Shown here: piece after piece, positions 28,225-53,100 of the stretch | Layout of the letters: every line of letters starts with the position of its first letter | Numbering within the stretch: position 1 is the stretch's first letter | NCBI RefSeq assembly: GCF_964204645.1 | Contig: NC_134025.1 | Span: 1,555,001 to 1,619,000 of the forward strand | Direction of reading: 5' to 3' | Length of the DNA: 64,000 nucleotides | From: Tubulanus polymorphus | Taxonomy: Eukaryota; Nemertea; Palaeonemertea; Tubulaniformes; Tubulanidae | Notes under the pieces: generated by a model | What the model was told of the DNA's origin: nothing | Databases searched by the model: none | The model's input: the letters and a program-made list of their open reading frames with translations, nothing else | Made by a program: the position numbers and the translations under genes

Positions 28225-29349
28225 CTTAAAAGATTGCTGGGTTCAGTTCTGGCCTTTTCTGTGCACCGTTCCAGTTTGTAGATTTTGGATTGGTTGATGC
28301 ACTTGGTTGATGCATTTGATTCAAGCTTGGATGTTCAGTGGGCGGAGGTCATCTGTAGATATTTGATGAGTCATTGATTTAAAGCTGGGTAGTTTCATAT
28401 AGATAGGATTTAGCTGAAATGAGCAAACAAATATATCCTGTAATGACAAAATATTTCATTTAGAATTTATCGACATAATTCCACATACCGGTATATCAAG
28501 TTACCTTTTATGATTGCTGGTTTCATTATCGGCGATTATCTTATTAATTGGTTAGTTAATGAGTTGTATATTAGTTGGCCTCATCTGTGCACTGTTCCAG
28601 TTGGTCGATTTTGGACGAGTAGTTGATCTCAAGCTGGGTATTTTCTTATAGTTGAAATTTAGCTGCAATGGTTAAATGAAGATATCCTGTAATGAAAAAA
28701 TATTTCATTTAGAATTTATCGAAATAATTCCATGTATATCAAGTTACCTTTTATGATTGCTTGGTTATCGGCTATCCTATTAGTTGTTTAGTTAGTTGGC
28801 CTCATCTGTGCACTGTTCCAGTTGGTCGATTTTGGACGAGTAGTTGATCTCAAACTGGGTTTTTCTCATAGTTGAAATTTAGCTGCAATGATTAAAAGAA
28901 GATATCCCGTAATGACAAAATATTTCATTTAGAATTTATCTAAATAATTTCATGTATATCAAGTTACCTTTAATGATTGCTTGGTTCTTAATCGACGTGG
29001 ATCATCTTAAGTTTGTTTGTTGATAAGTTGGATTCTTGTTGGCCTCATCTGTGCACTGTTCCGGTTGGTCGATTTTAGATGAGTAGTTGATCTCAAACTG
29101 GGTTTTTCTCATAGTTGAAATTTAGCTGCAATGATTAAAAGAAGATATCCTGTAATGACAAAATATTTCATTTAGAATTTATCGAAATAATTCCACATAT
29201 ATCAAGTTACCTTATATGATTGCTTGGTTATCGGCGATTATCCTATCAGTTGGTTAGTTAGTTGGCCTCATCTGTGCACTGTTCCAGTTGGTCGATTTTG
29301 GACGAGTAGTCGATCTCAAGCTGGGTTTTTTCTTATAGTTGAAATTTAG
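28225..29349 (-). repeat. Tandem array of exon-intron modules on the minus strand
   Basis: A unit of about 220-240 bp is repeated in direct orientation. Read on the minus strand, each unit has an acceptor (CATTGCAG or CATTTCAG) followed by CTAAATTTCAACTAT or close to it. An exon of 135-189 nt follows, then a donor reading AAAG or ATAAG followed by GTAACTTGATAT, and a short intron of about 85 nt. Predicted exons are 29349-29211, 29125-28968, 28882-28748, 28662-28505 and 28413-28225; the last is the most diverged. The shared core GATGAGGCCAAC is present in four of them. Stops occur in all frames, so a long non-coding RNA or a decayed gene is more likely than a protein. A related but diverged unit ends at 30118. 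Confidence 0.6.
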
Positions 29350-30117
29350 CTGCAATGATTAAAAGAAGATATCCTGTAATGACAAAATATTTCATTTAGA
29401 ATTTATCATAATAATTTCCATAAATAATATACCTAGAATAGCCTACTCAGTTATATTCGTAACACCGAACAAATTATAAGCGAACATACGATTCCTAGTC
29501 GAAATGCTCGCCATTTTGTTTTGGGTTCCACATTGGATTTTCCCAATGGGCTTTCCCATTTACATCAGAAGTTTCTGGAATTTCCGGTATATCCAACAAA
29601 CAGCCAATCACATTCAATGTAGCTCAGGTAACAAGGTCAACTCAGATAAATAGAAGCGAGAAAATTTTGGGGGTTTATAAAGTGAGGACCCGTAGGTCGA
29701 AAAGTACATCGAGATGAGTCGCAAAAACCGGCAACACTTCCAGGAAGGATTGAACTTATATATATTTCAATTCCAAGTATGCAAATTCTCATATGTGAAA
29801 ACGTGCCATTACTTAGTGCTAAAAAGCAGGGTTTTTAAGTGTTTTTCAAGAATAAGTCCCCTAAAAATGACTTGATCACTATGAAATTTTTGTTGGCTCG
29901 AGAACTCATTATAAGCCAAACGATGACACCAAAAATCAACAGCCAATGTTTATGCCTTGTTGACACACCGGTACTCTATTCATTTTCAATGAAAACTGCT
30001 TCTCCAGACCATTTGCATATGCAAACCTACGGTTTGCCAAAAATCAACTTACATTTCAAGTTTGCTGGGTTCAGTATCGGTTAAAATGTTCTAAGTTCGT
30101 ATCAAATATCAAATTAC

Positions 30118-35876: not shown

Positions 35877-36660
35877 AGAATTCACGAATGTTGTTTTTAA
35901 ATGTTTGCATTTATTGAACTCATTGAAATAAGCTCGATTATATTGATTATAATGAAATAAAATGTAAAAATTTTCATGAACCAAATATCGTCCTCTTATA
36001 TTGATGTTTGTTCGCAGCTTTAGATAAGAATTATTTAACGACTTCTTGCAGCCATGAGCTTTATCGACATGACTAAGCCTGATTAGTCGGTAAACACAAT
36101 TCCTTTTTTTACCATTACGATAAGCGAACATGACAGACCCCTTTAAGATACATTCAGTCCCAAACGAAGCCGTTTATTTGGGATTCGAGCATGGCTATCA
36201 CTATAGCTGGTTCGAAATCATGATTTGTACCGCCTCCAGATAGCATCCTATTTTCGCTGATTGTTTTGACCGTAAATTAACATTAAATTAGTTAATAAAA
36301 CCATCTACCTTAATTATTCCAATTCAGAAACTTACTACAAATTTATCTAACTTCATTACTGCAATAATTTATCATTCTTTAAGTTGAATAGAAAAATAAA
36401 ATTAAAATCCGCGAATCTACGGAATCTGTCAGGTGGCAGCACCGTACGGCCATGTCAATGAACCAGGAAGTAAAATGCACCTCGAACCCTTCAAGAAGCA
36501 AAAGGTTGAAAGCCTGTTTTGGTCGATGGCTAGTGACGTCATCAAGATCGCCTTTTTGTTACTCCCACAGCTAAACAACTCACTTTTAACGGTTAACCGC
36601 TGAATTTGAATTTTCTGTCAAGTGTATTCTTGCTGGCTGTTGATTAAAAGATTGTGAATC
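35877..36660. other. TSNAX 3' UTR and spacer to the multidomain gene
   Basis: It holds the TSNAX polyadenylation signal at 35956 and, at 36494-36541, a block with a CRE-like TGACGTCA that recurs inverted at 48869-48916. I see no gene. Confidence 0.5.
36494..36541 (+). promoter_or_regulatory. Conserved 45-bp block with CRE-like TGACGTCA (copy 1)
   Basis: The block contains AAAAGGTTGAAAGCCTGTTT, then TGGTCGATGGC, then AGTGACGTCA. It recurs almost unchanged in inverted orientation at 48869-48916. It lies about 120 bases upstream of a candidate start codon at 36661. Promoter function is inference, and a fragment of a dispersed repeat is equally possible. Confidence 0.4.
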
Positions 36661-36726
36661 ATGTTTTCCGAACGTGTTAAGCTTGTCTCCGGACCAGTTG
36701 GTGGGAATATTGGTTTGAAAAAAGAG
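36661..36726 (+). CDS. Candidate first exon of the SGNH-Ulp1-MULE gene
   Basis: An ATG opens 22 codons (MFSERVKLVSGPVGGNIG then LKKE) that stop at GAG followed by a GTAGAT donor, in phase 0. Phase 0 is what the exon at 38720 requires, since its other two frames hit stops. I found no other phase-0 start exon between here and 38720. The implied intron is 2.0 kb and contains the 548-bp foldback. The donor is imperfect and the peptide has no family match that I recognise, so this is a tentative assignment. Confidence 0.35.
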
Positions 36727-37154
36727 GTAGATTGCAAGATTATAAAAAACTCACTGGGTAACACTGGTGAACGCCGCGAGGATCGTACACGGTGGTGCAG
36801 GCGAGGCGTCGCGACCGCGCGGCGGCAGGGCTTTTTAATTTTGGCTTTTGCCAGTTTTGGAGTCTTGTTATTGCCACCACGGCCACGTTACCACCACACT
36901 CACATTGTCGCTAGGCCTACTGTACTGCCACTACTTTACTTGCTTGCTACTTACTCGGCTAAATTAATTTGTCTTCATCCACGCTTACTTCCCCCCTCCC
37001 CCCCCCCCATGTTAACAAGTAATTTCTGCCAACCGAACCACCAGTCGCAGTAGCCGTAGGCAGTATACTATAGTGCAGTAGTGGGTACCCAGTGGCATGC
37101 CATTGCCATGCCACTGGGTATAGGCCTATGTTGCCCGTACACAGTCACCACCTA

Positions 37155-37702
37155 CTAATGTCTATTTATTAATTGATGAGACCTGTTTTTCTGGGATATT
37201 TTGCTTACTTTTTGGGGTACATACCTCATTTATGTCTTAACAGAATGCCAAAAATCGCGGACAACAACTGAATATCCGATATATTTCCAGTTCTGTACCA
37301 ATTAGATGGATTGGCAAAAAGACTCCTTAAGTCCAGTTGAATGAGAGAGAAAATCCTCCATTTTGTCAAGTTTCTTGGATTTGAACATTGTTACCATGCC
37401 TACGCCACCCTGATTTAGTTGTTGAGACCCCACAAGAAAAATAACTTCATTTCGTAGGCATGGTGACAATGTAAAAATTCAAGAAATTTCACAAAATGGA
37501 GGATTTTCTCTCTCATTCAATTGGACTTAAGGAGTCTTTTTGCCAATCCATCTAATTGGTACTGAACTGGAAATATATCGGATATTCAGTTGTTGTCCGC
37601 GATTTTTGGCATTCTGTTAAGACATAAATGAGGTATGTACCCCAAAAATTAAGCAAAATATCCAAGAAAAACAGGTCTCATCCATTAATAAATAGACATT
37701 AG
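37155..37702. mobile_element. 548-bp foldback element, 250-bp inverted arms
   Basis: Arms 37155-37404 and 37453-37702 are near-perfect inverted copies of equal length around a 48-bp spacer. The ends read CTAATGTCTATTTATTAAT. The mismatches are scattered single bases, so the element is young. It encodes no protein. It is a foldback or MITE-type DNA element inserted in the presumed first intron of the gene that follows. A clear target-site duplication was not found. Confidence 0.85.
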
Positions 37703-37999
37703 GCCTTAAATATTCCAACAACCATTCCAAATCCAGCAACAAAAAATAAACAATAAATTTTAAGGCCTCGAAACAGAAGAATGGTAGTTCCCTGTATTCA
37801 GAGTCAATGAAAATGTATTTCTTGTTGCAGATAGATAGCCTAACCAATTTCAGGATAAGTACTTTTCATTCCTTTATTTATATACGTAGCCTAACTGTTT
37901 AATCCTGGCCCTGGCCACTGAGGGTGTATGCATTAGGTCTGGTCCCAGTTTCACTGAGCTAGTTAGCCAACAATTAAGCTGAGAAATTTTGTTAAGTGG

Positions 38000-38270
38000 C
38001 AATTCAGGGGCAGATCAGGAGAGTATACAGGGGTGTACACCCCTTAAAACTTTTAAGTCGCAATGAAATTTAAAGGAAAAATTAAAAATATCAACAAGTA
38101 TTTTTAAAAAGCTTATATTCCAAAACATGTTCTCTGTAGGCCTACTTCCAAAATATAGGTATTATGTTTTCTGATGATCTGGTGCCCTTTTGATTTTTAA
38201 TTATATATGATACTGATATGTATGCCCTATTTTGGGCTGCACCCCTCCCTGAATCAGTCTGCCTGCAATT
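38000..38270. mobile_element. MITE-like element related to ends at 9105-9148
   Basis: The left part reads CAGGGGCAGATCAGGAGAG and the right part reads CACCCCTCCCTGAATCAG. The right end matches GCCCCTTCCTGAATCAGACC at 9130-9149 and is preceded in both places by TGCCCTATTT(C/T)GGG. No transposase is encoded. Confidence 0.45.
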
Positions 38271-38719
38271 AAGAGGATGTTTATAGATAATTTGATTTAG
38301 AGGAATCTTTTAATTTAGTGCCTGATGTTAGGCCTTCCACAGCCTGGTAGAGGTGGTTTAGGTGAACAAGTTAGTCTTCACACTGCAGGACTTTTAGGTG
38401 AAGGTGAAACTGGCCCTTGTTTATGCATAGGCTACTGTGTGTGCACGCTTATCTTTATGCTTATTCAATTAGAATACCCATGTAGCTACCAAATAAGCAC
38501 CGCTTCAGAGGATTTTAGAAATTTTCACTTCAATAACACTGTGTTCTATTTTTGGGCACTAGCTACTATTATGCACAATTTTTTCAATCAATTCTATCAC
38601 ATTGATATACATATATGTGTCACTTCTTTTGCATGTAGTAGGGTCTTACAGTAACCAGTGTGCTCTCTCACACCTCCCTGTGATATTGGCCTGAGACTGA
38701 CAAATAATCTTTTTTGTAG

Positions 38720-39463
38720 CGTATTGGTCTCGTAGCAGACAGCATTTTAAAGTATGCTGGGCTAGATGGTGTAGGCTTATTTGAATGGACAAGGATCGTG
38801 TGCCCCGGAGGAACCATTGAAACATTGATGGAAGGTAATTTCTCGGTTCAGTACTGATTTATATTGTTCATTTTCATTGGGTTACTGATTAGTTGTATAT
38901 TACAGAATTGAAAAAGGTGAAGATGCTGAATGTGGAACAACTAATCGTCCATGTTGGAACAAATAATATGACGCGTGATGTCCCGCTTGAGATTGTTCTG
39001 CGAAGACACGTTGAATTAATTCGATTGTTGCTCTATAAATGTACTGGGACCATCATTGTACCAGCTCTTTTTCCTCGATGTGATGAGTAAGTATCAAGAA
39101 TAGATTTTTCTTGAAGTACTATATTTATGATCGATGTAATGATTTTTAAATTTCTTTCTTTTTTAAAGTTTCGATGCTGACACAAAAATATTTCATTACA
39201 ATGAAATGCTGCACCGCGAATGCTTTACACTTGGTGTAAAGTTCGTTGATTTTCACTTCTCAAGAGATCTCCTTTCACCGTAAGTAATCGTTTAATTTTA
39301 ATAAGCCCAGTAGGTTATGTGCATTTTTTCGCGATTTAAACTAACTTGTTTTTTTCTAAATTTTGTGATCTAGGACTGACTTGTTACACCCCAGCCGTAA
39401 GGGAAATCAGTTCATAAATAACAGGATAATGGAACTACTGCTATTGAAAAATGAAGATGAAAT
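38720..39463 (+). other. SGNH (GDSL-like) hydrolase domain, four exons
   Basis: Domain-level entry. Block I is VADSILKYAGL (Ser nucleophile kept, with Ala in place of the usual Gly before Asp-Ser). Block II is CPGGTIETL (Gly kept), block III is HVGTNN (Asn kept) and block V is DLLHPSRKGNQF (Asp and His kept). Fold and residues match the SGNH esterase family. Similar domains are known in ORF1 of some CR1-type retrotransposons. The substrate is unknown. Confidence 0.85.
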
Positions 39464-42400
39464 GTACGTAGAATTGCATTATTTTATCCAATTACCAGGT
39501 ATGCAAACTACATAAATTTTATGATTGTACTGGAAATAATGAATGATTCTTAATCAGGTGCCCTCAATACTTTCCATATGAGATTGAAAAGATGCAAAGA
39601 AGTAGAGCAGTCCATCGACGAAAGGTAATCATTTAGCATTGATATCCTAGAAAATGAATGATTTGCAATTAGTTTTTATAACTTGAATACGAAACCACTT
39701 TATTCAAAATCCTTGCATTGAATTAATGAATCATATTGATAGCTGATAGCAAAAAACAAATTGAAGGATGATCAAGCAAGAGCATGGGATGATTCAACAA
39801 TAGTGGTAAAGTTGTTTTCCTAAGTGATTTGTACGTGATTTATCTTTATAAAGTTAGATATATTTTAACAGTTTTTTGTATCCTTCAATCCAGTATAGCA
39901 GTTTTGACGTTGCGCATCATACAAGGAAACAATTCTGTTGTGAAGATCAAAGAGCCTTTTTCACATTCGACCAGGTACATATCATCTCAAGAACTTATGA
40001 TTTAATATTAGTTTGGTCACTTTTATTTCACAATTACCTAAAGGCTGTGCATGCACAAATCTGTCTTTTTTTTCCAGTACATGACTAAAATTGATGTGGC
40101 TGGTGTTGCTATTTGTTTAAAGCCTCAATTATTTACTCCTTTTTATCAGACTAAGAACGTGAGTAATATGTTTCTCGAAATGAAATTATAGAAATTCATT
40201 GGTATTGGTATGATTTATGCTGTAAAGCTTTGTTTTCATATTCAGGGATGCTACAATAGAAGTTGTCACAATACTAAAAGATTTAACAGAAAAAGGAAGT
40301 CAGTGGAACATGTAAGTTTGATGCCCTTTCTGCGAGATGCGGGTTCATTTTTGTTATTTTTGCTTAGATGTTGAAGCAAAAACAGATTAATGTGCTCTTC
40401 CACATTAGGTTATTCATCCACAGACGGATCCTGCTGACTCGACATGTTTTTGCGGAGTTGAATTCACCAATTGGAAAGATCTTCTAGACCATGTTAGTTT
40501 AAACCATACTGAAATGTAAGTACAACATAATTCAATTAATTTAGTACCTACAAATCTAAATGACTTAATGCAAATGACTCAGAGATACCCATGTTTTATG
40601 TTAGGCCTATATGGGTAATTTCATACTCTATCTATTCATATGTCTAAAAAAAGTGAGTTGATAATGTGTATTTCAGGCGGACAATGGAGGAAGAAGGAAA
40701 GGACGCGGCTTGTGACAATTTCTCGGAAGGAACGATAGAGGAAGCAGAAAAGATGCAGGAAGATAGTTCGAAAGAAAGGATAGAAAGATTAAAGATGCAG
40801 GAAGATAGCTGGATGGAAAACAAAAAACAGCTAAGTATCACAGGTGGTGGAGGTATCGAACCAATCATAATTGATGATAGTGATGAGAATGATTCTGATG
40901 ATGAACATGTATGTGAGACTCGATACAGGCTGCTATTCTATTGATCAGATTAATAGGTTTCTTTTCTTACATTATGCTAAAACCAAACAACAAGATCTTT
41001 TTGCCATGAATCTTTGGGTAAATAGTAAGCCTTTAAGCCCCACTGATTCAGTCGATTGGGAACAGATTCAAGCATTTTCAAATATGCTCTTTTCCTTAAA
41101 ACCCTCTCAACAATTTCCAGTTGGTAATAATAATAGCGTATCTGTATCAGAACTTCAGACGATGACTAATCAAAAATGGTTTGAAGGATCTGTGTTAAAT
41201 GCTTTTGCATCTATGATAAATGAACAGTACTGTAATATTCATGCATTTATGATGCCACTTACATTTGATGCTAAGAAATATGTTTCAAATTTATATAAAA
41301 GATTCGGTCCTAATCCACTCATAAGTTGTGATAAACTAATTTTTTTCCTGCATGTTGGCACCCAAAACGATTTCGTATTTCTAAATTCTTATGGACATGT
41401 TGTTGCCAATCATTATGCACTAGCAGTTTTTTACCCAAAAAGTAACAAACTGTGTTATGCTGATACACTAGCATGGGATTGTCCAAGGGAATTTAAAAAT
41501 CATTTAAGATCTGTTTTGAAAGGTTTGAATTGCCCTGATCCTGTTTATATCCACCTCCATGATCCTCATTTTGTTACTGAAAATTCAGTGCATGTATGTA
41601 GTAATAATTGTACTAGTTATTACCCACTCCAATCATGTTCATCTGTCTGTGGCCCTGCTACATTAATTGGTGCTTGCATTGCAACCTATTATGAAAAGGA
41701 TATTTCAAGTGTATTTTCATCTCCCAATGAATTATCTTATCTTAAGAACATTTCTAACTATTCTGATTTTGTTAGATTGATATTGATTAATTGGCTTATG
41801 AAACATCTAATTGATATTACTCAACTCTTCTCAAAGTCATCTCAACCTACTGCTAATAGTACTACTTTCTCTAAGATATCACGATTATCTCGCAGACAGA
41901 GACATAAACGATCAACTGAGTCAAATAATACACTAGCTAGTTCTGAATTAAAGATGTCAGACTCTTATATTGCCCCTAAAAAAAGCAAATCAGTCTTAAC
42001 TACAGCCAAATCTAAATCTACACCAATTTTGAATAATGAATCAACACTTGAATCTACACCAATTTCGAATTATGAATCTGCAGCAATTTTGACTAATGAA
42101 TCAACACCAATTTCGAATAGTGAATCTGCACCAATTCTGACTAATGAATCAACACCTGAATCAACACCAATTTCGAATAGTGAATCTGCACCAATTTTGA
42201 CTAATGAATCTACACCAATTTCGAATAGTGAATCTGCACCAATTTTGACTATTAAATCTACACCTGAATCTACACCAATTTCGAATAATGAATCTACACC
42301 TGAATCTACATCCTCAATTTTGAATCCTCAATCCTCATTAACTCTAAATTCAGCTGAACCATTAACTTCCCATATTAATGGTTCTAAAACTACTATCTCC

Positions 42401-45400
42401 CATCGCATCAGGAGAGGAAAGCATTATCTTGAAGTTGCTTTTCATTCAACTGGCAGTAAGACGAAGTATAAAAGTTTTCATTGTACAGACCAAGGTACAA
42501 ATGACCAGGTAGCCATTGACACTATCAAGAAATACCTCAACAACCAGAATCCACTTAGTGATGAATGGGTTGAAAATGGGGAAGTAATGACTGGTGCTGA
42601 CACAAAATATTATTTCGATAGATTCACTTTTGATTTTACAAAAACAGTTCGTCTGCATAAGAATGTGCGGCCTTCATTTGTTGGTAACCAGACAACGATG
42701 AAAGCTTCCTTAACATTAAAAAAGAATTGGCAAACCCATAGATTAGATAATAAATTTGAATTTATTGAGCCAATTGTTGAGGATACTTCTCAATTTGTGG
42801 CTGCAGAAATGCTCATAAAATGTTCGTCAAAGTCTTCAGTTTGTAAATCATCATGTGGATATTATCTTTCAAAGTTGAATATGTCCAGTAACATCACTAA
42901 TTGTCCCTCATGTCAAATTGACGTTGTTTTAAATGATAAACAATGTATTCATTGCTCCATTACCATGTCTAACAAATGGAGGAAAAATGCTGATGGTGAA
43001 ACACTTTGTTCCAACTGTTACAACTATAAGCTGAAGAATAAACGTGATCGTCCTGTGAAGTTAAGGCAGCAGTTTGAGCCAAAAAAATTAATTCACCCTC
43101 ATTTTATGTGTTATTGGGCAACAAAACTTGTATTATTTAGTACTGATTTATCCAAGTGGAGAATCTTCAGCAAACCACTTAATGGTCAATATCATGACAA
43201 TATTCCTTTACAAATTAAAAAGCGACCTAATTTATCTACTAGAGATAGATGGGATGAAAATAGAGTCATGATGAAAGCCACAGCAATGAAGGTTCTTTCT
43301 GCCACCAATGCTCACAATAACCTTCATGTATCAAATGTAAATGATGGCGCCGGTCATGACCATACCCTAGATCAAATTTCAAATAGATTGAAATATATTG
43401 ATAAATCTTCGATAAAATTACATATGAAATCTCAAGACGAAATACCTATTCTAAGTTCTGATTGGAGAAATACTGAAAAATTATTAGAGGGTAACTATGA
43501 ATCTGTCCTTTTATTTCAACGAGGGGATGCCACACTCAAACGTAATTATCACATTATTCTCTCTGATCCTCGTTCTCTGGAACATTTATCCAACTTTGGA
43601 CAATCTGTCATTGGTATTGACGTGAAACATGATTTCAATTCGTGGAAATTCAAAACTTCATTTGTAACTTTTGCAGACAACAAAAATGAAGGACGTATTG
43701 CTGCTGCATCAATTAGTAGTGATGAAGGGGGGGCTACTCATGCAACTACCATCCAGTTAGTTCTAGCCAATACACCATGTAAAGACGAAAAATGTAATCA
43801 TCCATCTGAATTCTATATATTTAATGATGGCAATGGTTTTTTCAGAATCAAGCCATGTTCATCAACATCTAGATTTTGTCCTTTTGTACAACATGATAAA
43901 GATGCAAGTCTAAAGCAAGGAGCATCTGACAATAATCTTAAATCAGTACTATGTAATTTTCATGTCCTGCAGTGTATTCGTCGCTTCATGAATGAAAATC
44001 AAGAACTTCGCTTATTTTGCAAGCCTCTAGAAACTGGTTTCAAATGCATTATGAGATCATGGGATGCTTCCTCTAGAACTGATATAGCCAATTCATTTAT
44101 TAGTTTTATTGAGAATGATATTTCTTTAGACCTTATGTCGCAAGATACAAAAACATTATTTATTGATTACCTAAAGAAGAATTGGTTTAATTCCCAAATT
44201 TGGTCTGATGCATTCAATGCTGAATCAATTTATCAGTCAGACCAATCTAACAGAAATAACCCTTTGCTATTAACTGATAATATTACTGAGCGCAAATTCA
44301 AACAAATAGATGATGTCTACTTAAGTGGACACCTAAATAAACTGATATCATCTTTTGTACGATTACTGTTTGAAAATGTTTTTAATGATGAGATCAAAGC
44401 GACAAATATGAACAATCTCCAATTTAAGCAACTTGACCAACGAGTTAAGAATATACGTCACCTTGAAAAGATAGAAAAGTGTTGCAAAAGAGCCTTTGAT
44501 TTATTACAGAATAATGAGATTTTAAAATATGATGAAGAAACTAATTGGTTTGTTGTGAAGAGTTCTTCACGAAAGAACTTAAATAGGTTAGAAGATAATG
44601 ATAATTTTTTCAATGGTGATACTCAATATACATTCAATCAGCTTGATGTTTTAGAAGAAAGATTCCCCGATAAAGTATCAATATCCGAGGAACATTCATA
44701 TGACATTTCAAAAAAATGCCGAAGGTACATAGGAAATTTAGATTCAATATCCAGTCGTATCTTATTCAATTACGTTATTACAATCGTTCCTGAAAATTGT
44801 CTTTCATACGTAGATGGTAATTGCCATTTAATCAATTTGAAACTAGGTATATGTACTTGTGAAGCTTTTATAATGATTGGACAACCATATTTTTGCAAAC
44901 ATCTTTTTGCCTGTTTTGCCCAAAAAAACAATATAACCACAACGAAGGCTTTAATTGATGCATATAAATTCCACATTGTGGAGCCTCTGCCAACTTACAA
45001 TTTTACTCGACAAAATATTTCTGTTTCATCTACCCTCATTGATAAGTTAAAAGATCATTCCCACATTGCTAGCTCGAATGATATCAATGCTGCTCGGAAA
45101 GGGCACATTCTAAGTATTTTACATAATGAAAGCCACTGTGGAATTAAGTTAATAAGCGGACGACCTGCCAAACGACAACCTCACAATATGGCTCATAGGC
45201 GTGCTGAGGGTCCAATCAAGGACAATCAGGTTGCCATAAACCTTCCTGAACTTGAAGTGATAGACCCTTACTGTCCTAAGGTTACAATGCCTAAAGATGC
45301 TGAGAATGCAAGACACGGAGGGCGAAAGATAATTAGACCTGCTAACAGAGGTGTATCCTTTTCTGCTATGGTTGAAAATGCTGCTATCAAACTAGGTAAA

Positions 45401-46183
45401 AAAGCTAAAATATCAGAAATTGAAACCATAGACTCCACTGATCCAGATCCTGGCAATGATATCGAATTTTCAGCAGATATTTTAAGTCAGAATAAATCAT
45501 CCTTACCAAAAAAATCAAAAGATACCAAACCAAAAGATATTAAGTCAATACCAGTTGTTAAAAATGACTCGAAGTCTGTTTTATTTGAAAAAAGTATTGT
45601 CTGTTCCTTTTGTATTAAAGACAAAATAAATCCTCCATATCTTTGTTCATGTCGCAGGGAACTAGATAGGCACATATCCACTTCTCATTCATCTTTGAAA
45701 CCTATCTCATGTGCTATTTGTTGGGCAGATGGGGTTATTAATTCATATGCAAGTGAAACATTCCTTCAAAAGCACATTCGTATTGAACATAATCATCATA
45801 AGAAAAAATCTATTGTAATCGATTATAATAATAGAGATGATTATCTCAACAGTTCTCCTATTACAGAAATCAATAATTCCAATTCTGAAAAAGAATTAGA
45901 AATTCTTATAGATCAACCTGGAAATGCAGGCCTCCAAAACCTAGCAAAATTGAAACTAGATAATCTTTTGTCATCAAAAGTTGAAAAAACCCCTTCTCGG
46001 TTAGTTGCTGAAACCTGCCCTGTCTGCCACAAAAACTGCAATGCTAATCCTAAGAAAAAGTCCACATTCTCAATTGAATGTGATAATTGCCATAGATGGT
46101 ATCATTGGAAATGTGCTCCAATCAATGAGGCTCCTCCTGAACATATCAGGTGGTTTTGTTTTCATTGTGACCCGATTTCCTAA
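38720..46183 (+). CDS. Multidomain transposase-like protein: SGNH hydrolase, C2H2, Ulp1-like protease, GATA finger, MULE DDE, SWIM, PHD
   Basis: Exons are 38720-38834, 38906-39086, 39169-39279, 39374-39463, 39558-39624, 39743-39805, 39894-39974, 40078-40158, 40246-40311, 40409-40515, 40677-40908 and 40949-46183. All join in frame for 2,142 codons plus an uncertain start. The order of parts is as follows. An SGNH hydrolase has VADSIL, CPGGT, HVGTNN and DLLHPSRKG. A C2H2-like finger (CFCG...HVSLNH) follows, then a coiled acidic segment with PIIIDDSDENDSDDE. Next is an Ulp1-like protease (NHYALAVF, YADTLAWD, QSCSSVCGPA), a Ser/Thr repeat, a GATA-type finger at 42944-43075 and an RNase H-fold transposase at about 43590-44330. 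A SWIM finger lies at 44852-44902, two C2H2-like clusters at 45600-45790 and a PHD finger at 46015-46172. The transposase words IGIDVKHD, LCNFHVLQCIRRF and DNITERKFK resemble MULE proteins. Introns of only 71-161 nt set it apart from its neighbours. It is probably an autonomous or recently domesticated transposon gene. Confidence 0.85.
40909..40948 (+). other. 40-nt gap with GT-AG ends that restores the reading frame
   Basis: The frame of exon 40677-40908 runs into a stop shortly after 40908, while the 5.2-kb frame is shifted by one. Removing exactly 40 nt that begin GTATGTGAG and end TTGATCAG joins GAA-CAT to ATT-AAT in phase. An intron this short is at or below the usual animal minimum and lacks a pyrimidine tract. 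A one-base frameshift, or a longer intron ending at 41029, are the alternatives. Confidence 0.5.
42010..42330 (+). repeat. Coding minisatellite, Ser/Thr-rich linker
   Basis: Within the long exon, units encoding STPISNSESAPILTNE-like blocks repeat about eight times, with occasional extra STPE inserts. It forms a flexible, probably disordered linker between the Ulp1-like protease and the GATA finger. Recent unit duplications are visible as identical stretches. Confidence 0.9.
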
Positions 46184-46929
46184 ATAGTTTGTATAGAATA
46201 TTATTGATCGGGTTTCGAATGAATCCCTGACGTTAGAAATATTTTCATTTCCCATGGTGAACGTAGAAGCCTATAATGACCGTCACTTAGTCACCTATAT
46301 ATTTACTCGATTATATATAAGGTTAAGAAGCGATGTATATGCACTGGTGTTTATAGTGCTCTATTTCAGGTTTTTTCTTTCAGGAAAATATATTTTGTGA
46401 ATAGATTACCGCTTGATTTTTTATGTTACAGGTTACTGCAAAATCATCAGTTATTGTGATGCGTGCCGATGTCTCTGGATGATTCTGACCATGTCTAGAA
46501 CTTCAACATCCTTGACTTATCATCAATTGGCAGCAGTATACATACATGCATGTTCAGAGAGTGTATGAAGAGAGTGTATGGACACATCAACCTCGGTTCA
46601 AGGCTGTCCCTGATTAAATTGTATAATCCATATATAATATATATAGATTGGTCCCATTTTAACTTACTCAACTGCTTGAATGTCTTGTTTGTTATTCGTA
46701 AATTTTCACTTATTCATTGATTGTTTCTGTAGAATTTTATATGTGATATATAAACGTGGAAACCAGGGCCCATTGCACTATGAAAGACACTTGACATTTT
46801 TTTGGGACAGATCTTTCTATATGTTTATGTCCTCGAGGCATCTGAAGTTAAGAAAATTCCCTTTGAAAACTGGAAATGACATAATGAAATAAGTTGTGGA
46901 ATGTTTACAAATGACAAAATGAATGAATT

Positions 46930-47820
46930 TTGCATTCCTAAGGCCCTATATATTTACTGCAGTTAGTCCTGTATGTCTTTTTTATCGCAATTTACTGTGG
47001 TTTATTCCTGTTTGTCCTGTATGTCTTTGTGATCGCGATCGCAATTCATTGGTTGCATTGTTTACTGTTAGTCCTGTATGTCTATCGCAATTAAGTTAGT
47101 CCTGTATGTCCTGTATGTCTTAGTTAATCGCAATTCATTGGTTGTTGAATTGTCTACTGTTAGTCCTGTATGTCCTGTGGTTTAGTCCTGTATGTCTTAG
47201 TTAATCGCAATTCGTTGGTTGAATTGTCTACTGTTAATCCTGTATGTCCTGTATGTCTATCGCAATTAAGTTAGTCCTGTATTTCTTAAATAATCGCAAT
47301 TCATTGGTTAATGAATTGTCTACTGTTAGTCCTGTATGTCCTGTGGTTTTGTCCTGTATGTCTTTGTGATCGCGATCGCAATTCATTGGTTGCATTGTTT
47401 ACTGTTAGTCCTGTATGTCTATCGCAATTAAGTTAGTCCTGTATGTCCTGTATGTCTTAGTTAATCGCAATTCATTGGTTGTTGAATTGTCTACTGTTAG
47501 TCCTGTATGTCCTGTGGTTTAGTCCTGTATGTCTTAGTTAATCGCAATTCGTTGGTTGAATTGTCTACTGTTAATCCTGTATGTCCTGTATGTCTATCGC
47601 AATTAAGTTAGTCCTGTTTGTCCTGTATGTCTTAGCTACGAGCAATTATCAAACTTGATAATTGCTCGTAGGTCTTAGTTAATCGCAATTCATTGGTTGC
47701 ATGGTTTACTGTTAAAGCTGTATGTTCTGTATCTCTATCGCAATTTCATTGGTTGCATTGTTTACTGTTAAAGCTGTATGTTCTGTATCTCTATCGCAAT
47801 TTCATTGGTTGAATTGTTAA
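46930..47820. repeat. Minisatellite with higher-order 337-bp period
   Basis: Short words GTCCTGTATGT, TCGCAATTCATTGGTTG and TGTCTACTGTTAGT are repeated many times. A larger unit beginning TCTTTGTGATCGCGATCGCA starts at 47024 and again at 47361, and the two stay nearly identical for about 250 bases, so a block has been duplicated as a whole. A perfect 17-nt-arm hairpin (CTACGAGCAATTATCAA) lies at 47636-47671. Confidence 0.9.
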
Positions 47821-47968
47821 CAGTCCTCTGTATGTACATGTAAAAATAATTAAGGTTCTGACAACAGGTTTGTAAAGTAATCAGCTATCTGTTTTGTCTA
47901 TCGTTGCTTAAATTGTTAACTGTTGTTTTAGAGTTCTGTATGTCTTTGTCGATCATTTTGTCTGCACT

Positions 47969-48210
47969 CAGGGGCGGATCCAGCATTTTGAAGGGGGGGG
48001 GGGCAAATGAAAGCAACAACAGATGGCTGTAAGCCATTCCAGAGCAAGCACCGATAACGCGAAGACCCTTCCTAAAAATTTTTTGGAAAAATAGATGCAA
48101 GCAGGTGCATTCTGAGCATTACTTAATAGAAAGATTTCATTCGGTTTTTACTCAGTAACGCATAGATTTGCGGCTACATCGGTAAAAATAGAGGGGTGGA
48201 TCCGCCACTG
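47969..48210. mobile_element. hAT-like MITE, 242 bp
   Basis: The left terminus is CAGGGGCGGATCCAGCATTT and the right terminus is GGGGTGGATCCGCCACTG, which are inverted copies of the CAGNGGCGGATCCA type end seen in many animal non-autonomous elements. There is no coding capacity. An 8-bp target duplication is not evident. Confidence 0.7.
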
Positions 48211-48868
48211 AATAGCTATTGTTTTGTGTAGGATTGTATCTGTGAATTAAGTAAAGTTACTTACTCCAGTCTGATGTTATTGCTTATTGCTCGTATTTTA
48301 TTGTTTTAAGTGTGCGAATACTTTTCTTAGATTTATGGAGATCAGGATGACGAGGGTTCGATTTGAACCAACAAATAAACAAAAACATTCAAACCTCAAA
48401 TTAATCCGTTTACTTGTCTTTATTTTTGGGGAACATTTTTTTACCTAGTTCAGATTTGATAACACAGTAGTCGCTTGTTCCAAAGCGATGTGCCGTTGAA
48501 GACAGACCTGAAGGTCTTTGCCGACAGCGATGCTATCTAGGATTTCAAAGGATGTGAAGAAGGTGCATCTTCGACAACCATAGTTTGCAGTTTTAACAAT
48601 TTAAAACAATAATAGTTTCATTAAACAACTTAAAATTTAAAGATTTAGTGGACTTACTGTTTAACTAGGGCAGGGATTTCTCGCAACCGTACATGATATA
48701 TACATACACTAGCAGTAAATACAATGTACTTCTAACCCTTATAAAACTTAAACTATTATTAGTTATTTTACAATTATTAAACGGCAACGTTGAAATGCGA
48801 TGTGCGCTCAGAGCGGCCGTAGTGATTTTGGCGTATTGTGGGATTCGAACCGCTCGGAATTTGTACTA

Positions 48869-48916
48869 GTGACGTCACTCGCCATCGACCAAAACAGGCT
48901 TTCAACCTTTTGCACT
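48869..48916 (-). promoter_or_regulatory. Conserved 45-bp block with CRE-like palindrome (copy 2, inverted)
   Basis: Inverted copy of 36494-36541 with about 95 percent identity over the core. It includes GTGACGTCAC, a perfect CRE palindrome. A GGGATTCGAACC word nearby (48840) resembles a pol III B box on the minus strand, which would fit a SINE-type origin. Confidence 0.4.
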
Positions 48917-49118
48917 TCAAGAACTGCAGAACTCTTCACAAAACTGTTACAAAGTGGTTTGAATGCTGTTAAAGTGGCTGATGCACGAGTAAGTATGATT
49001 TTGAGTATGTACAGTTTAGAATAGATAGTTGTCACGAGCTGTTATTAATTATTAATCAATGTGAAGTGAGAAGAGGTTGATCTCCAATTCGCGCGGGCCA
49101 ACAGGTAGTGACACAAAC

Positions 49119-50163: not shown

Positions 50164-53100
50164 ATGAACAGAGTTCATCGTTTCAACTTATGGAAGGTAA
50201 GAATCTTGTCTTTCTAGTGTAACCTTTTTGGGGTGGAAACTTAGGAATTTAAGTTTGACTTTCAGATAGGCTGACCAACATAAAAATGCTTCCTCCAGCT
50301 CTGTCTGAATAGAATATTATTGTGACATTGTTGAGTGATGTAGTTTGGCATAGAAAATGTCACGATTCCTAATTTAATAGGCCTTTGTTCCTGGCTCTAG
50401 AAAACATATGATTTGCTTTCATTCATTAAGATTAAACATTGAAGAATGTTTCGTAATGAACATGTTTTCCCCTTGTTTTATGTATTTTATCACACATGAT
50501 GATGGTCCGATGGTCCGTCTCTAGAAATAGTCCGAAACGTCGAGTCTTGATTTTCTACGTCAAATATGGATGAATAAATTTTGTTTGTAATCATTCCAAT
50601 TTTATATAGCAGGATATGTATGGATATATGCCTTATACGGATTATATCCATTAAAAATTATTCTTTCACTGATAACTGAAGTTATTTATCACGAAGACGA
50701 AGATTTTTAAAATCGGTCATTAGTGTTTTCTTGTCAAATTTTATTGCGTGTGCTATTGATAAATCAGTTCATACTCTGATTCACACAAATACCGTATTTG
50801 AATGTGTCAGACGGTTTGATAAGTGAAAATATTTCGCCCTTAGTCTTAGATCTGGAATTTCCCATATATTATGTATTGTGACATTTTCTTTCAGAAACCA
50901 GTTTTAGCTGTTTATTCAGCCAACACTCGACGTATTCGTATACAGAACCATTATTCACAATGATGCCATTTTTTGCCTCGTCATATTTTCCTATGAAACA
51001 CATATAATTGACCATTATTTCAGCCATTATTCTTTCATGATCAGTTTCTCATGCATGAATTGCCCTCGGTACTTTTATGCTTCACCGCCAATGTCGCATC
51101 TTTTCATTCTGTAAATACTTCTAAAAAGAAAATATCATGATTTTTATTAATTTTCATTATGAAATTGATTGATTTTTTGTGAATATTTTAGATTGTTCTG
51201 CTGCTACAAGTGGTACATGGAGCAGCAAACAATCTCTCAGGTAATTATGAATCTTAACATTACAATTCTAGATTATCAAACTGTTTATGAACTACACTAG
51301 AATGAACATAAAATATTTCTCTGAGACTATTGTTGCCTGGTTGGTACTTCTTACTTTTTCAGTTTCTTCCTCAATAAACGCAACTACTACTGTTCAGATT
51401 ACTGTACCAACAAACACAACTGATGCAACTGCTACTGAACCAACTGATGCAACTGCTACTGAACCAACTGATGCAACTGCTACTGAACCAACTGATACTG
51501 CTACTGAACCAACCAATGCAACTGCTACTGAACCAACCAATGCAACTGCTACTGAACCAACTGATGTAACTGCTACTGAACCAACTGATGCAACTGCTAC
51601 TGAACCAACTGATACTGCTACTGAACCAACCAATGCAACTGCTACTGAACCAACCAACGCTACAACTGTCCTACCAAAACTAGGAGAGAATTGTACTCAA
51701 ACATGTGGTTCACATAGCAGTGGTTGTGAACAGGGTGTTTGTAAATGTCTTAAAGACTTCTATGAATCAACAGCTGGCTGTGTTTCAAGTATGCATTACA
51801 TTTATTACAAGGATTTCACTGAGTTCTGAAAAATTCCTCATCAGTAATAGTGCTATACATGTATATATTGTGATAGGTTACTCTATGCTGCTGGTGGTTG
51901 CTGTTATAAACAATGATTGACCAATTAGTGACATTTATATATAATAATTGCTCTATTAAACATATCATTAATGATTTTTATCACTTATCACTGAACCAAA
52001 ACAATGATCAATTACCTAGAACTATTAATAAAAACTGCCAGAGAATGATGTAATATATGCATCGTTTCTTTAATTCTTTTCTATATTTTAAAGAACCCAA
52101 ATGAATCTTTATTTACAGACAAAAATTTATCACCGCAAAATGTGACCATTAAAGATATCGGATTGACGAGTGTAAACATAACATGGAATCTTGCAACTGA
52201 GATTAATACCTCGTATATAATCAAATGGGGAGATCTGAATAGAACAGTGACTGACACCTCATTCACTGTACCAGATTTAAAACCTGGATCCATCTACAAT
52301 ATTTCCGTCTATGGAGAATATAATGGTGCTGTTGTTCAGGCATTCACAGAGTTAGTCAGAACATGTAGGTATTGGGTAAAGTATAGATGTATTTTATCAT
52401 AGTTGAGAGCATAGAACTGGCATGAATATGATTTTCATGATCAACATGACAGAAAACTTGCTACAGCAGCTTTAAATCTAAATAATGTGTATAAACTTGA
52501 AGATTTATTTTTGTTTACAGTACTTGAACCACCAAGTAATATTCAGATTGTCAGTGTAACGACTGGTGAAGTGAATGTGAACTGGTCTTCGGTGGCGAAT
52601 GTAACAAAATACAATGTGACCTGCTTGAAATTGACAGAAAATGGGAGCACTGCTGTTTCTTCGGAAATAATTGAAACGACAAATGCAACGTGTTCCGAAT
52701 TGGATCCTGGAATGCTGTTTGAAATAACTGTGATGTCAATTAAGGAGAATTTCAAACCATCACAACTATCATCAATCAAAGGAATAACGAGTTAGTACAT
52801 GTATATACAGCGCGCTACTCGGTGAAACACTATTTCTCCCATTAAACAACAATATTTGTATATTTCAGATCCGATGAAACCATCACACTTCTCGGCATCC
52901 GTTCTCAATTCTAACAGTACTAATGCCATACAGTTAAATTGGACTTATGCTGACAACTCTGGTCATACCGGTTTCAAATTACTACAAACACCAGCTGAAG
53001 GATCCCTTAATGACAGCTTACAGTCAAACGACAGATCTAAGACACAGTTTGTGGCAACTGGTTTGGTTCCTGGTAGATCGTATAGATTTACAATAAAGCT

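Follow-up and report, generated by a model that had tools for sequence, protein, structure and literature searches.

A probable Rehavkus-type DNA transposon of the nemertean Tubulanus polymorphus with predicted SGNH hydrolase and Ulp1-like protease domains

A stretch of 64,000 nucleotides of the Tubulanus polymorphus genome (contig NC_134025.1, positions 1,555,001 to 1,619,000; hereafter the window) raised the question of whether a hydrolase, a protease and a transposase are encoded by one gene, and to what kind of element such a gene would belong. The initial annotation, made from the sequence, had drawn at 38720-46183 twelve exons joined in a single frame of 2,142 codons, fusing an SGNH hydrolase, a Ulp1-like protease and a MULE-like transposase with GATA, SWIM and PHD fingers. 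Either a new type of autonomous DNA transposon or a host protein domesticated from one was suggested, and profile searches, a count of genomic copies and a search for terminal inverted repeats (TIRs) with target duplications of 8-11 bp were proposed as checks. The 267.8-Mb T. polymorphus assembly was searched for the family of the window element, designated fam1. The long open frame was borne out at 40871-46183 and had at least eight full-length genome matches of approximately 100% identity, the window included, as well as many partial ones.

Comparison of the window flanks with those of six sister copies placed the shared unit at 36498-48913, where homology among the dispersed copies begins and ends exactly. 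This is a complete transposon copy of 12.4 kb with its gene in forward orientation, and the extent originally drawn misses it. The unit is bounded by TIRs of 44 bp at 36498-36541 (forward strand) and 48870-48913 (reverse strand), which are 98% complementary. The TIR end yielded 34 forward and 31 reverse matches in the genome and none with a reversed-pattern control. A 9-bp target-site duplication (TSD), CTTCAAGAA, occupies 36489-36497 and 48915-48923, with one extra A (48914) between the 3' TIR and its duplication. Exact 9-bp TSDs were present in five sister copies (CTTTAAACT, CGTATGGCA, GATCAAATC, GTTGAAAAT and GTTTGATAC), the count leaving out the sixth, for which the 5' anchor was not found. 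Pairing of TIR ends by eye gave an approximate total of about 25 bounded fam1 copies of about 2 to 17 kb, deletion derivatives included, ten or so being near full length. The SGNH exons lay inside every full copy examined.

The window element is a recently active DNA transposon. The suggestion of an autonomous DNA transposon was upheld by the TIRs, the 9-bp TSDs, the near-identical dispersed copies and the intact frames found elsewhere in the genome. Domestication of a transposon as a host gene would account for one long conserved frame, but the number of young copies, each with its TIRs and TSDs, and a window copy that is itself broken, make this scarcely credible; at the window locus it is rejected on copy number, TIRs and TSDs.

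Deletion derivatives of two recurring lengths, probably non-autonomous, retain the TIRs and the minisatellite described below. Those of about 6.86 kb (C3:6469429-6476293, C3:19918258-19925121 and C11:12983883-12990747) also retain SGNH exons; those of about 4.79 kb lie at C2:26088628-26093418 and C6:11799616-11804405. One full-length copy (C13:7-12109) has its TIR almost at the end of the 244-kb contig C13. Copies c6, c7 and c8 (C2:19707814, C2:27094245 and C6:11905869) have three amino-acid changes in common and a shorter minisatellite, and are a subfamily.

Within the unit, a foldback element with 250-bp inverted arms 48 bp apart is nested at 37155-37702, inserted at TA. It is present in copy c4 and missing from most sister copies; an inversion of this segment in c4 was considered and rejected, the inserted foldback being palindromic. 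A minisatellite with units of 166, 74 and 56 bp precedes the 3' TIR at 47002-47818, as determined by tandem-repeat search and genome matches, and the listed matches elsewhere in the genome fall within further copies of the element or close to them. Two further repeat arrays occur in the window: a 243-bp tandem repeat of 3.8 copies at 28562-29421, and 24-base repeats at 51417-51657 encoding a Thr-rich stretch within a 185-aa open frame that has a Cys-rich end.

The exon structure was revised by comparison with the sister copies. All six have ten introns and eleven exons, and read without a stop from the SGNH exons to the PHD exon through 2,232 codons, counted from the equivalent of 38720. All six carry 230 extra bases at the last splice of the initial annotation (near 40909-40995), within one continuous exon. 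This splice and the twelfth exon that it created were rejected, representing the scar of a 230-bp deletion and no intron, so that twelve exons and 2,142 codons give way to the structure of the sister copies. The deletion junction lies at 40914-40915 with a 4-base overlap, ATGT; the frame of the window copy shifts there and reaches a stop (EHVCETRYRLLFY*). The window copy is broken, having lost 230 bp, and intact copies exist elsewhere in the same genome.

The GT-AG borders of the upstream exons were present as annotated, and all exons lie on the forward strand. Exon 1 (38720-38834) encodes SGNH block I (ADSIL) with the catalytic Ser, and its intron and phase are identical in fam3, a related family on C7 (L045). 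Exon 2 (38906-39086) encodes the GTNN block and is supported by a Pfam match and by comparison with fam3, exon 3 (39169-39279) by the fam3 comparison, and exon 4 (39374-39463; TDLLHPS, with the catalytic Asp and His) by a PDB match and the fam3 comparison. Linker exons 5-9 (39558-39624, 39743-39805, 39894-39974, 40078-40158 and 40246-40311) are stop-free in the sister copies, with phases as in fam3. Exon 10 (40409-40515) encodes a C2H2-like finger (CFCG...DLLDHVSLNH) that is conserved in fam3 and weakly matched in a second related family, fam2. The last exon, exon 11 (40677-46183), is a 1,918-aa open frame in the sister copies, and it is this frame that is broken in the window copy. A first coding exon of fam1 must exist upstream of 38720; a search there gave no convincing candidate.

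Splicing very probably joins the SGNH part to the remainder of the transposase gene, because fam3, which is approximately 40% identical to fam1, keeps all ten introns with position and phase unchanged. Were the SGNH a separate neighbouring gene enclosed by the TIRs and unfused to the transposase, the arrangement would resemble that of fish Helitrons, which carry a separate SGNH (PMC4021074). This is improbable, since ten phase-conserved introns run from the SGNH into the long exon, stop-free, in two distant families. Identity between fam1 and fam3 is 58% in the SGNH and 38-41% in the Ulp1-like and GATA parts. In the fam3 copy L045 (C7:9326000-9335500, reverse strand) the Ulp1-like part is internally duplicated, and the copy is interrupted by inserted sequence resembling a CR1/L2-type retroelement.

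Profile evidence was uneven along the predicted protein. The fam1 SGNH matched Pfam Lipase_GDSL_2 above cut-off (E 4.1e-8), as did the SGNHs of the two related families (2.3e-8 and 2.3e-9), and the residues Ser, Asn and Asp-His are visible. Among PDB entries it matched Oskar at E 0.0066 and, weakly, the CR1-type esterase 4c1b at E 0.042. A Ulp1-like cysteine protease with an intact catalytic tetrad is probable at 40913-41842 on the forward strand (His 41411, Asp 41462, Gln 41630 and Cys 41648), where Pfam Peptidase_C48 gave no match. The His-Asp-Gln-Cys tetrad is invariant across the three families, and a three-family profile matched yeast Ulp1 (1euv) at E 3.7e-4, its catalytic His and Asp aligning with those of Ulp1. 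In Ulp1 the Gln and Cys are six apart and the Cys is followed by Gly; the same spacing, with Gly directly after the Cys, occurs in all three families. A motif resembling a SUMO-interaction motif, IEPIIIDDSDE, precedes the domain at 40855-40887 (forward strand) and has a parallel in fam2, EEIIMISDDE. Between fam1 and fam3, dN was 0.34 for the SGNH and 0.66 for the Ulp1-like domain with dS saturated or above 2; both domains have therefore been kept.

The remaining domains lie in the last exon on the forward strand, beyond a repetitive Ser/Thr-rich linker located by tandem-repeat search (42015-42310). A probable GATA-like zinc finger (CIHC...CSNC, 42944-43018) matched GATA-1 at E 6.6e-6 with a two-family profile and reached E 0.0023 in Pfam, below cut-off. 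The predicted catalytic core of the transposase spans 43619-44290, with D at 43619, D at 43895 or 43901, C-x2-H at 43952-43963 and E at 44288, and is followed by a SWIM-like finger identified by motif (CTC-x11-CKH, 44852-44902). The D, D, C-x2-H and E motifs are conserved between fam1 and fam2, whose overall identity is 50%, as is the SWIM-type CxC-x11-CxH, and on these motifs the core may be read as MULE-type. Paired Cys/His fingers, also found in fam2, lie at 45598-45800 (limits approximate), and a PHD finger (46016-46168) matched PF00628 at E 3.2e-5, above cut-off; the PHD finger of fam2 was likewise above cut-off. Pfam hmmscan gave neither a MULE (PF10551) nor a SWIM match at the element, and no KDZ-type (KDZ / Zisupton) model was among the Pfam matches, Pfam missing the core altogether. 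No matches were obtained with NCBIfam and no relatives in the viral contigs and phages searched, and single-sequence AlphaFold models (pLDDT 37 and 32) were too poor to use. The annotated order SGNH, Ulp1-like, GATA-like, transposase, SWIM, PHD stands, with the MULE and SWIM identities given by motif only; of the profiles named, SGNH and PHD were above Pfam cut-offs, GATA was below, and Peptidase_C48, MULE and SWIM gave no Pfam match.

The second related family, fam2 (C6; L021/L043/L044), has a 1,787-aa frame containing a SUMO-interaction-like motif, Ulp1-like and GATA-like parts, core, SWIM, paired fingers and PHD, a downstream domain order identical to that of fam1. A 74-bp x 28 minisatellite array follows the gene, and no TIR was found within 19.5 kb. 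At three loci an SGNH with its own start codon, above the Pfam cut-off, lies upstream of fam2 sequence; from this order, splicing to the long frame may be inferred. The fam2 SGNH is 23-25% identical to the others and shares no intron position with them. Over the remainder of the protein the families are separated by similar distances, so the slot taken by the SGNH has probably been replaced or filled twice, though fast divergence rather than replacement may also lie behind the difference.

Taken together, the domains suggest how the protein might act, and the roles given here to the SGNH, Ulp1-like and PHD domains in transposition are conjectural. The D-D-E core, with its C-x2-H and SWIM finger, would cut and join the TIRs with a target stagger of 9 bp, and the fingers, perhaps with the minisatellite, could serve in binding of element DNA. 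The PHD finger might dock on histone tails and so direct insertion, or binding, to certain chromatin. At the complex, SUMO on host proteins of silencing or repair might be bound and stripped off by the Ulp1-like domain together with the SUMO-interaction motif. For the SGNH esterase, whose triad is kept, the substrate could be an ester or a lipid, or the domain could bind membranes, as has been proposed for the CR1-type esterase.

Rehavkus is the outgroup of the MULEs (Dupeyron et al. 2019, PMC6446971), described in Table 1 of that paper by a 9-bp TSD, TIRs of 26-400 bp, one ORF, a PHD finger and, ahead of the 3' TIR, a minisatellite. The window element has the 9-bp TSD, a TIR within this range (44 bp), the PHD finger and the 3' minisatellite, together with a single transposase gene and MULE-like catalytic motifs. 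Because the TSD, PHD finger and minisatellite match the published description, the window element is probably a Rehavkus-type (MULE-related) cut-and-paste transposon with one spliced gene, its transposase exceeding 2,230 residues, an assignment made by published features. A separate group alongside MULE and Rehavkus, in which the three features arose by convergence, would fit the absence of a Pfam MULE match, given that ordinary MULE domains were found by PF10551 at 56 other places in this genome, none at this element. The three features occur together, however, and the D, C-x2-H, E and SWIM follow the MULE-type order, and such a group is unlikely.

Against the Rehavkus-type assignment stands the lack of Pfam matches to MULE, SWIM and Peptidase_C48. 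The element also differs in several ways from published Rehavkus elements. The element is 12.4 kb long compared with 9.5 kb for Rehavkus-1_TC; its host is a nemertean, whereas published hosts are arthropods and annelids; and SGNH, Ulp1-like, GATA and SWIM domains are not given for Rehavkus in the available part of PMC6446971. It looks as though the novelty consists of SGNH plus Ulp1-like domains on a Rehavkus-like transposase: of the proposed new transposon type, the extra modules stand, while the TSD, PHD finger and minisatellite are those of a published group. There is an appreciable chance, somewhat short of even, that the element is instead a typical Rehavkus, known entries already having both domains, unnoticed and described only in Repbase. 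Rehavkus elements are poorly described, and the 9.5 kb of Rehavkus-1_TC leaves room for such a gene; against this, the one table found gives for Rehavkus the PHD finger and minisatellite and nothing else. No paper placing an SGNH inside a DDE transposase was found in the part of the literature covered, Repbase reports lying outside it. A more ambitious reading, of a Rehavkus-related lineage or neighbouring group in which an N-terminal SGNH esterase works in transposition and has been recruited or replaced more than once, is put forward tentatively and is rather doubtful. Under the Rehavkus-type assignment, a sparse record is extended by intact, recently moved copies.

The other known systems each share part of this architecture. 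Mutator-like elements have long TSDs with TIRs, the SWIM finger and a Ulp1-type domain associated with a MULE-type transposon, Ulp1 having been recorded with them in hydra, lancelet and plants (cited in PMC2836005), but no SGNH is reported for them and PF10551 fails to match the core of the window element. Ginger1-9_HM, of Ginger1, has Ulp1 and PHD domains fused to its transposase; unlike the window element it has a Gypsy-type integrase core and C-terminal Ulp1 and PHD, and SGNH is not given (PMC2836005).

CR1-type retrotransposons carry in ORF1 an SGNH esterase (structure 4c1b; PMC3905857) with Ser, Asn and Asp-His in place, as here, and a PHD occurs within the same element group (Kapitonov and Jurka 2003, as cited in PMC4021074), although the SGNH there sits in a retrotransposon ORF1 and no transposase is present. 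Esterase and PHD were thus previously known together in CR1-type elements, where the job of the esterase is unsolved; an element with a kept SGNH triad under strong constraint offers a second system for asking what it does. Fish Helitrons with Texim genes (PMC4021074) are likewise DNA transposons carrying an SGNH hydrolase, but their SGNH is a separate captured gene and the element is rolling-circle. If the SGNH was indeed recruited, apparently more than once, in a cut-and-paste transposon, unrelated mobile elements would have converged on the same enzyme.
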